This document shows positions 54,604-57,292 of a stretch of DNA of 64,000 bases, in pieces. A program made the position numbers and the translations under genes. Every line of letters begins with the position of its first letter. Positions within the stretch are counted from its first letter, which is position 1. Below the pieces are notes generated by a model that saw only the letters and a program-made list of their open reading frames with translations, was not told the DNA's origin and ran no database searches. Source of the DNA: Candidatus Hoaglandella endobia. Its GTDB lineage: Bacteria > Pseudomonadota > Gammaproteobacteria > Enterobacterales > Enterobacteriaceae. Location of the stretch: positions 1 through 64,000 of the forward strand of contig NZ_LN999835.1 of assembly GCF_900044015.1 (NCBI RefSeq). Direction: 5' to 3'.

Positions 54604-55392
54604 TTATTTTATTTGTTCATTACTTATCGTCGAAAGTATGTTTTTTACTACGCGCGGGTTTCCCGCTACGATATTGCTGGAAAGTAAGTAATTATGATGG
54701 CCGCCAGTAAAATTAGTTACTAGACCACCAGCTTCACGCACCAGTAATTCCCCGCTAGCAACCTCCCAAGGAGAGAGACCTATTTCAACACAACCGTCTA
54801 CACGGCCCGCGGCCACATAGGCCAAATCCAATGCAGCAGAGCCGGTGTTACGGAAATCCGCACATTGAATGAACAATTTGCTTAGTAGGCCGATATAATT
54901 ATCGGTATACTGTTTTTGCTTCAATGGGAAGCCAGTAGCCAGAATGGTGCCAGTTAAATCACGTGCGCCGCCGCAACGCAGACGATAACCGTTAAGCTGC
55001 GCGCTTTGAGTTCGGGTGGCAGTAAACAGCTCATTGCGCATTGGATCATAAACTACAGCGATCTTCGTATGGCCTTTGATGCACACGGCAATAGAAACAG
55101 CAAAATAAGGAAAACGATTGATGAAATTGGTGGTGCCATTCAGTGGGTCAATAATCCATTGTGGATCATTGTCTTTACCGGCCAGCTCTCCGCTATTTTC
55201 AGCTAAAATAGCGTGCTGCGGATAATACTTGCGGATAACTTCAATTATTAAGCGTCCTGCTTCCAGGTCGACGTGAGTAACGAAGTCGTTGTTGACTTTC
55301 TGACTGGCTTCAATAGGGATATCATAATGTTTGGCAATTAAATTACCTGCCTTTCGCGCAGCGCGAATGGCGATGTTGAGCATTGGATGCAT
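54604..55392 (-). CDS. suhB: SuhB, inositol-monophosphatase family protein with altered metal site; probable antitermination factor
   Basis: The 262 residues compare with 267 in E. coli and are conserved throughout. In E. coli SuhB has inositol monophosphatase activity but its essential role is as a NusA-associated factor in rRNA antitermination. Here the metal motif DPLDGTTNF is DPLNGTTNF (Asn85, codon AAT, at E. coli D87). The second motif WDFAAGELL is WEVASGELL (Glu210 at D212). The EES motif reads ENS, with the first Glu kept. Phosphatase activity is therefore probably lost, yet the frame is intact, favouring retention for the non-enzymatic role. Confidence 0.95.
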   Translation of the reverse strand: MHPMLNIAIRAARKAGNLIAKHYDIPIEASQKVNNDFVTHVDLEAGRLIIEVIRKYYPQHAILAENSGELAGKDNDPQWIIDPLNGTTNFINRFPYFAVSIAVCIKGHTKIAVVYDPMRNELFTATRTQSAQLNGYRLRCGGARDLTGTILATGFPLKQKQYTDNYIGLLSKLFIQCADFRNTGSAALDLAYVAAGRVDGCVEIGLSPWEVASGELLVREAGGLVTNFTGGHHNYLLSSNIVAGNPRVVKNILSTISNEQIK

Positions 55393-55710
55393 GGATATAT
55401 TTCACTAAAATGTGAAAGAACTAAAACACAATAAAGAACTAAAACACAATATAGCAAGCAGAGCGTCAGCAAAAAAACACCTACAAGCTGTGCTTAACCT
55501 ATTACATATATGGATGGCTCCTAGCATAGCATGCTATGCTACATAATACCATAATAATTTTGGTTAAAACTTTTTATACTGCTAAAATTAGATCTACTAC
55601 AGCCTGTGCAATGAATGAGCACTCACTTATAGGATCAACAAGTTATGCGCTTGATTACACAAACTACAGGCAAGGCATCTGCTTTTAACGATGCCTGGAG
55701 TTAATACGTA
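55393..55710 (+). promoter_or_regulatory. iscS upstream region with a hairpin beside the Shine-Dalgarno
   Basis: Divergent spacer between suhB and iscS where trmJ and iscR sit in E. coli. AGGCATC (55673-55679) and GATGCCT (55690-55696) form a 7-bp stem ending directly at the GGAG (55697-55700) that precedes the iscS ATG. A short frame MRLITQTTG from 55644 might be the residue of the iscR start, but too little remains to say. Confidence 0.4.
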
Positions 55711-56953: not shown

Positions 56954-57292
56954 TCAGTCTTCTGTGTCGGTATAATCTTCTATTATTATATCCATCTGCG
57001 GTTTACCTCCGGATAGGGTATGAAAACGCTTAGGACGGCGGGTATGTTCAATGTACTTGAACCAAACTTTTTCATGTTCATTAAAAGGAGCACGTTCACC
57101 GTGGCACACCGCAATAAACTGCCTCTCATCTTCAGTCATCGGTTCACGTTTGCCGTTGTCCAAATCATTGTAGGCATGGCCACAACGTTCCAGTAACTGC
57201 GCTTCTCGAATAGTGAAATGACCATGTCGAGAGAAGCCGCGAGGATAATTTTTGTTATCAAAATAACGATTAGTAGTAAAGAAGCTGTCCAT
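56954..57292 (-). CDS. maoP: MaoP (YifE), Ori macrodomain organiser
   Basis: A 112-residue protein equal in length to E. coli YifE/MaoP, with matching [42 protein letters not shown], and [14 protein letters not shown] near the end. MaoP with the site maoS insulates the chromosomal Ori macrodomain. It is isolated here: iscS converges on it and no yif neighbours remain. A small non-enzymatic chromosome-organisation gene surviving in a reduced genome is unusual. Confidence 0.93.

Follow-up and report, generated by a model that had tools for sequence, protein, structure and literature searches.

A SuhB with naturally altered metal ligands in Candidatus Hoaglandella endobia, a probable pseudoenzyme retained as a Nus factor

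The suhB gene and its altered active site

The window, by which we mean the whole 64,000-nucleotide stretch of Candidatus Hoaglandella endobia that was analysed, carries a single suhB gene with an intact reading frame (Table 1). The product scores 448.2 bits against PRK10757, the NCBIfam equivalog model of SuhB (cut-off 332), and 216.7 bits against the Pfam family Inositol_P, PF00459 (cut-off 27). The alignment with the E. coli SuhB of structures 6tqn and 6ib7 runs from end to end (E 1e-120), which agrees with the full-length collinearity claimed in an earlier, sequence-only reading of this DNA; a two-residue deletion near residue 27 relative to the E. coli protein had escaped that reading. 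An AlphaFold model of the protein, built from 28 sequences (mean pLDDT 86.8, pTM 0.87), has the predicted fold of an IMPase. Its six best PDB matches are all E. coli SuhB (2qfl, 6ib8, 6ib7, and 6tqn), in states that comprise SuhB alone, SuhB with the AR2 domain of NusA, and SuhB inside the rrn antitermination complex, with TM-scores of 0.91–0.94 (by query length) against 2qfl, 6ib8, and 6ib7. The genome consists of three contigs with 636,713 bp (contig C1, 628,221 bp), and a protein search of it found suhB as the only gene of the IMPase family. The interval between suhB and iscS holds no open reading frame of at least 80 aa, which excludes an intact trmJ or iscR at that place, and the gene that follows iscS is a DUF413 gene, presumably MaoP-like, instead of iscU. 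A Pfam scan of eight other open reading frames of the window and a promoter scan added nothing on suhB, and no second genome of the genus turned up in a search.

Table 1. Coordinates of suhB, of the residues discussed in the text and of neighbouring features in the window
Feature	Position	Strand	Description	Basis
suhB ORF	54604..55392	(-)	262 aa, ATG start, intact; SuhB/PRK10757 equivalog, enzyme site altered	
N85	55138..55140	(-)	codon AAT; equivalent of E. coli D87	alignment on E. coli SuhB
E210	54763..54765	(-)	codon GAG; equivalent of E. coli D212	alignment on E. coli SuhB
E65-N66	55195..55200	(-)	equivalents of E. coli E67 (kept) and E68 (changed, E68N)	alignment
D82	55147..55149	(-)	equivalent of E. 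coli D84, kept	alignment
N182	54847..54849	(-)	equivalent of E. coli R184, changed (R184N)	alignment
T128-Q-S130	55003..55011	(-)	G130T and G132S equivalents	alignment
K250 and L253	54634..54645	(-)	equivalents of E. coli K251 and L254, both kept	alignment
suhB–iscS interval	55393..55710		no ORF of at least 80 aa	
DUF413 gene	56954..57292		follows iscS	

Residues are numbered below as in E. coli SuhB (L091 in our alignment). From IMPase structures we take D87, D212, and D84, together with E67, to be the metal ligands, and the remaining site residues discussed here presumably contact metal or substrate. At E67, D84, D87, and D212 the window protein has E, D, N, and E, and thus departs from the metal site of a Mg2+-dependent inositol monophosphatase at two of the four positions. 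These are the Asn and the Glu to which the sequence-only reading had pointed, and both are confirmed by the alignment (codons AAT and GAG). Five further changes, E68N, R184N, R209S, G130T, and G132S, were absent from it, and E67, D84, L86, T89, D44, E205, and W211 are kept. Because D212E is conservative and E67, D84, T89, and D44 remain, residual activity is possible, and the protein could be a still-active phosphatase with a remodelled site in which Asn and Glu still allow a metal to be bound, the metal or the substrate perhaps being a different one. The retention of E205 and W211 and the IMPase fold of the predicted model also speak for such an enzyme.

Comparison of suhB with the genes of five Sodalis-type relatives (L002–L006), the nearest of which encodes a protein 80% identical to that of the window, gave dN/dS values of 0.08–0.16 by two methods (dN 0.117–0.136; dS 0.86–1.42, which is near saturation). 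These values indicate that the window gene is under purifying selection, and neither a broken frame nor a loss of selection, the marks of a pseudogene, was found. The low ratio, the intact frame of 262 codons, and the 80% identity argue against general decay, in which suhB would be turning into a pseudogene and the ligand changes would belong to an unfocused degradation in a genome dominated by drift. What such decay would explain is that the window protein differs at 29 of the 170 positions conserved in ≥98% of 109 relatives, G130T and G132S included, that 13 of 392 family genomes have no match at all, and that suhB of one genome (G094) survives only as a stop-ridden fragment. The probability that at least two of the four metal side chains would be altered at random in the window protein is 0.135, which is not significant, so the window by itself is no proof of targeted loss, and the case depends on comparing SuhB between genomes.

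Metal side chains of SuhB across the family

The family sample comprised 392 genomes, of which 379 had an IMPase-family match and 13 had none. The 109 relatives used as reference are the best matches to the window protein (29 + 80, partly from the same genomes, 91 distinct proteins) and are for that reason biased towards similar sequences; genome size was seen for 29 of them and is about 3.1 Mb and more. A further 119 SuhBs from smaller genomes were picked manually by listed genome size, namely 11 from the 2.5–3.4 Mb class, 17 from genomes of 1–2.5 Mb, and 91 from genomes below 1 Mb. The two lower classes include every genome for which a SuhB match was seen, and the 2.5–3.4 Mb class covers 11 of 13 genomes, G106 being counted among the 109 relatives and G247 left out. 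Two rows were dropped before counting (L001, which is the window gene again, and L170, the CysQ of G322), and G094 and G099, which yielded no more than other IMPase-family genes or a fragment riddled with stops, stand outside the size classes.

The full set of metal side chains (E67, D84, D87, and D212) is intact in 108 of the 109 best-match relatives, in 9 of 11 SuhBs from genomes of 2.5–3.4 Mb, in 3 of 17 from genomes of 1–2.5 Mb, and in none of the 91 from genomes below 1 Mb. Erosion comparable to that of the window gene is thus present in all 91 sampled family members below 1 Mb from which a SuhB was recovered: one ligand is lost in 5 of these proteins, two in 12, three in 49, and all four in 25. 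Since 22 of the 91 sequences are gapped in the E67 column, the count was repeated without it; D84, D87, and D212 are then kept together in two of the 91, both of which have E67 and D44 changed. The recurrence in relatives for which the sequence-only reading had proposed a test is found, with 0/91 against 108/109.

D87 is Asp in 109 of 109 relatives. In the genomes below 1 Mb it is replaced by N, S, E, H, V, Y, or K, and D84 by N, H, Y, G, T, E, or Q, a variety that points to many separate events. With many different residues also at D212 and E67, a lapse of selection fits better than a new chemistry shared by these proteins, and this, together with the invariance of D87 among the relatives, makes a remodelled but active phosphatase an improbable account of the window gene. 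An error of sequencing or assembly at the AAT codon, behind which the native protein would be a normal enzyme, is hardly credible: one would have to dismiss GAG for D212, E68N, and R184N as errors too, and the 91 other SuhBs from genomes below 1 Mb are also altered in their ligands. With two ligand changes in the window and recurrence in its relatives, a mistake in a single codon is insufficient. The commonest replacements in genomes below 1 Mb are E67 by K, D84 by N, and D212 by N, which would fit one-step G-to-A changes left unopposed.

The number of independent losses was approached with a tree of 82 SuhB rows (59 from small genomes, 22 of the 109 relatives, and the window), from which the catalytic columns had been removed. 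The minimum on this tree, most inner branches of which are weak, is 6 changes of the all-four-intact state and 17 changes at D87, and no more than 2 to 4 pairs were available for an independent-pairs test. The one exception among the 109 relatives is L006, the SuhB of a large-genome Sodalis-type bacterium (G103, contig of 4,171,146 bp), which carries E67K, a change that may mark the beginning of the same process. An already altered active site was also seen in L135, L286, and L323, from genomes of ~3.3, 2.1, and 3.1 Mb that are possibly host-associated; the SuhB of L323 has an internal stop too.

Focus of the changes and comparison with CysQ

Within the 91 SuhBs from genomes below 1 Mb, the family-invariant residue is kept in 3% at D44, 12% at E67, 11% at D84, 56% at D87, 8% at T89, and 18% at D212. 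The median for these six catalytic sites is 0.12, compared with 0.53 for the other family-invariant positions, invariance being defined by the 170 positions conserved in ≥98% of the 109 relatives (Mann-Whitney p = 0.004; none of the p values in this account allows for shared ancestry). In the initial set of 59 proteins out of the 119, the six-site test gave p = 0.002 and a test on ten sites p = 0.005, and an acidic control, in which catalytic Asp and Glu were compared with other invariant Asp and Glu, gave p = 0.031. Among the non-catalytic acidic residues, E30, E71, D76, and D147 match the catalytic acids in how often they are lost. The R184 equivalent is Arg in 10% of the 91.

Nine positions, W81, N91, Y117, F125, G130, N136, L190, Y194, and E222, are unchanged throughout the 91. 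For general decay it is difficult to accommodate that 91 tiny genomes have an altered active site and nevertheless leave W81, N91, Y117, F125, N136, L190, Y194, and E222 invariant. At the two glycines the window protein stands apart from the other SuhBs of genomes below 1 Mb, of which 91/91 keep Gly130 and 86/91 keep Gly132; it has Thr and Ser there, so its scaffold is not fully typical, and the change may possibly concern a dimer or RNA contact.

CysQ, the 3′(2′),5′-bisphosphate nucleotidase, is a paralogue of SuhB in the IMPase superfamily that shares its fold and metal motif, and it is expected to stay an enzyme. It was searched for in 42 genomes, the window genome and 41 small-genome members, mostly symbiont-sized. 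A CysQ gene was found in 37 of the 42 (35 above the curated cut-off), in a sample that favours recognizable CysQ because the genomes were picked for a second family match or candidate. Although CysQ and the window SuhB have superfamily and metal motif in common, each of the 37 CysQ genes retains the complete set of four metal side chains, the Asp at the D87 position included, and 35 of these 37 genomes have a ligand-altered SuhB. Of the other two, G036 keeps its SuhB ligands, and no suhB was found in G322, an assembly of ~190 contigs. In the window genome the CysQ model matches only suhB. The intact CysQ motifs mean that general drift or mutation bias alone fails to explain the SuhB pattern, for which relaxed selection on SuhB catalysis would be the better explanation, and they leave general decay of the window gene as an unlikely alternative to a lapse confined to the enzyme.

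Nus-factor partners and the retained role of SuhB

The residues and partners expected of a Nus factor are present in the window genome. The NusA-AR2 contacts K251 and L254 are kept in its SuhB. Its NusA matches over residues 1–494 with 82% identity, and 45 of 67 aligned AR2 positions are identical to E. coli; the identity of NusB is 72%. An exact TGCTCTTTAACA, which we take to be the boxA consensus, lies ~300 nt downstream of the 16S gene (the 23S gene was not located), and a copy with two mismatches lies 128 nt before 16S, a match equalled by 1.5% of shuffles. The weight of the two SuhB contacts is known from E. coli, where, according to excerpts of PMC6614801, changing K251 and L254 moves the Kd for AR2 from 94 nM to 141 µM, a loss of affinity of more than 1000-fold.

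Conservation of contact residues, which the sequence-only reading had also proposed to test, holds at K251 and L254 in the window protein and is only moderate in the tiny genomes. Among the 91 SuhBs from genomes below 1 Mb, K251 is kept in 56%, L254 in 60%, and K108 in 58%; K251 and L254 are thus kept more than most catalytic sites, yet they are not invariant.

With a probability of roughly three in four, SuhB of the window is a pseudoenzyme that is maintained for its role as a Nus factor. The inositol-phosphatase chemistry would have been lost through Asn for D87 and Glu for D212, two of the four metal ligands, and selection would keep SuhB for its work as a Nus factor, which brings together NusA-AR2, RNA polymerase, and the NusB/S10-boxA module while rRNA is transcribed and folds. 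The catalytic pocket may have ceased to be under selection, probably because the reduced metabolism has no need of it, and mutation pressure would then have eroded it as the scaffold stayed. Three points here are what we infer from sequence: that activity is absent, that the transcription role persists, and why selection lapsed. In substance this is what the sequence-only reading had proposed, an enzyme shed and a transcription role kept, and it gains support from the recurrence among small genomes, from the dN/dS values, and from the matching K251/L254, NusA-AR2, NusB, and boxA. For the family as a whole, loss of SuhB catalysis is likely to be a near-universal step of genome reduction in these enterobacteria, every SuhB recovered from a genome below 1 Mb being then a pseudoenzyme despite the name inositol-1-monophosphatase that family models continue to give it.

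In pseudoenzymes with a second role, catalytic residues are lost, the scaffold is under selection, and the non-enzymatic role is presumed to be kept. What differs here is that a single family shows the loss again and again in its many reduced genomes, graded with genome size. The closest known system is E. coli SuhB itself, at once an IMPase and a Nus factor (6ib7, 6ib8, and 6tqn), which the window protein resembles in its full-length match, predicted fold, and K251/L254, and from which it differs in the changes at D87, D212, E68, R184, G130, and G132 and in the two residues missing near position 27. That SuhB activity is not required in E. coli is stated in excerpts of PMC6614801 and PMC4807359. 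Through the same excerpts, the E. coli SuhB variants without IMPase activity of Chen and Roberts (2000) offer a parallel in the way the protein works, since activity was not needed to relieve the defect of a suhB mutant; theirs is a laboratory result, whereas the change in the window is natural, recurs in relatives, and is known from sequence. Dispensable SuhB activity in E. coli is therefore already known, and for its natural, recurrent loss we found no paper: among the papers listed by searches on SuhB with endosymbionts, Buchnera, symbionts, or D87N and by three broader searches, there was no report of recurrent natural loss of SuhB ligands, as judged by titles and the openings of abstracts.

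In the portions of the symbiont literature consulted, suhB appears in several settings. It is omitted from a metabolic model of Buchnera as not connected to biomass (excerpt of PMC2649895), is listed for the Calaphidinae and Phyllaphidinae lineages of Buchnera (excerpt of PMC11188193), and stands, with an asterisk, among ancestrally essential genes (excerpt of PMC11481867). A 2006 paper places the Blochmannia IMPase-family protein Bfl535, possibly the suhB product, in an inositol pathway (excerpt of PMC1360075). SuhB is described within the antitermination complex in an excerpt of PMC10216711.

Which of the two known roles of SuhB evolution keeps has so far been argued from E. coli mutants, and reduced genomes supply natural data in which the protein outlasts its catalytic site. 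If the near-universal loss is true, selection would maintain SuhB in these bacteria for the transcription role alone, and the reduced genomes would amount to a natural mutational scan that sets Nus-factor or scaffold residues (the nine invariant positions given above) against catalytic ones. The positions kept in the 91 ligand-altered SuhBs are thus candidate contacts to RNA polymerase, to RNA, or within the dimer, and the suhB genes of tiny genomes are ready-made enzyme-altered variants for complementation tests. As a warning, such genes should not be annotated as inositol monophosphatase, nor should the reaction be put in metabolic models of symbionts.

Two partner tests across genomes were also tried. 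The first, joint loss of NusA-AR2 and suhB, is suggestive only, with exceptions both ways, and so does not serve as a clean test. It used a NusA search of 76 genomes, leaving out 49 further genomes below 1 Mb or of 1–2.5 Mb, and we assume that AR2 begins at about residue 427. The NusA match ends before AR2 in suhB-less members of g60 (4), g102 (4), and g78 (3 with NusA). G131, G094, G099, and G322, by contrast, retain AR2 even though an intact suhB could not be found in them. The second test, boxA, was rejected: 6 of 10 suhB-less genomes have a leader match with at most two mismatches, so boxA-like sites, occurring also in genomes without suhB, do not discriminate.

In six genomes with suhB (G130, G186, G052, G091, G122, and G262) the NusA match ends before AR2, and their SuhB must either act without the AR2 contact or be loosening. 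K251 is basic in 2 of these 6 compared with 42 of 53 genomes (Fisher p = 0.03), and L254 is aliphatic in 3 of 6 compared with 50 of 53 (p = 0.01), a contrast that we do not lean on because six genomes are too few. In genus g102, the NusA frames of G101, G211, G284, and G345 contain 3–4 TGA codons each, which suggests that TGA is read as an amino acid in this lineage of roughly 0.3 Mb.
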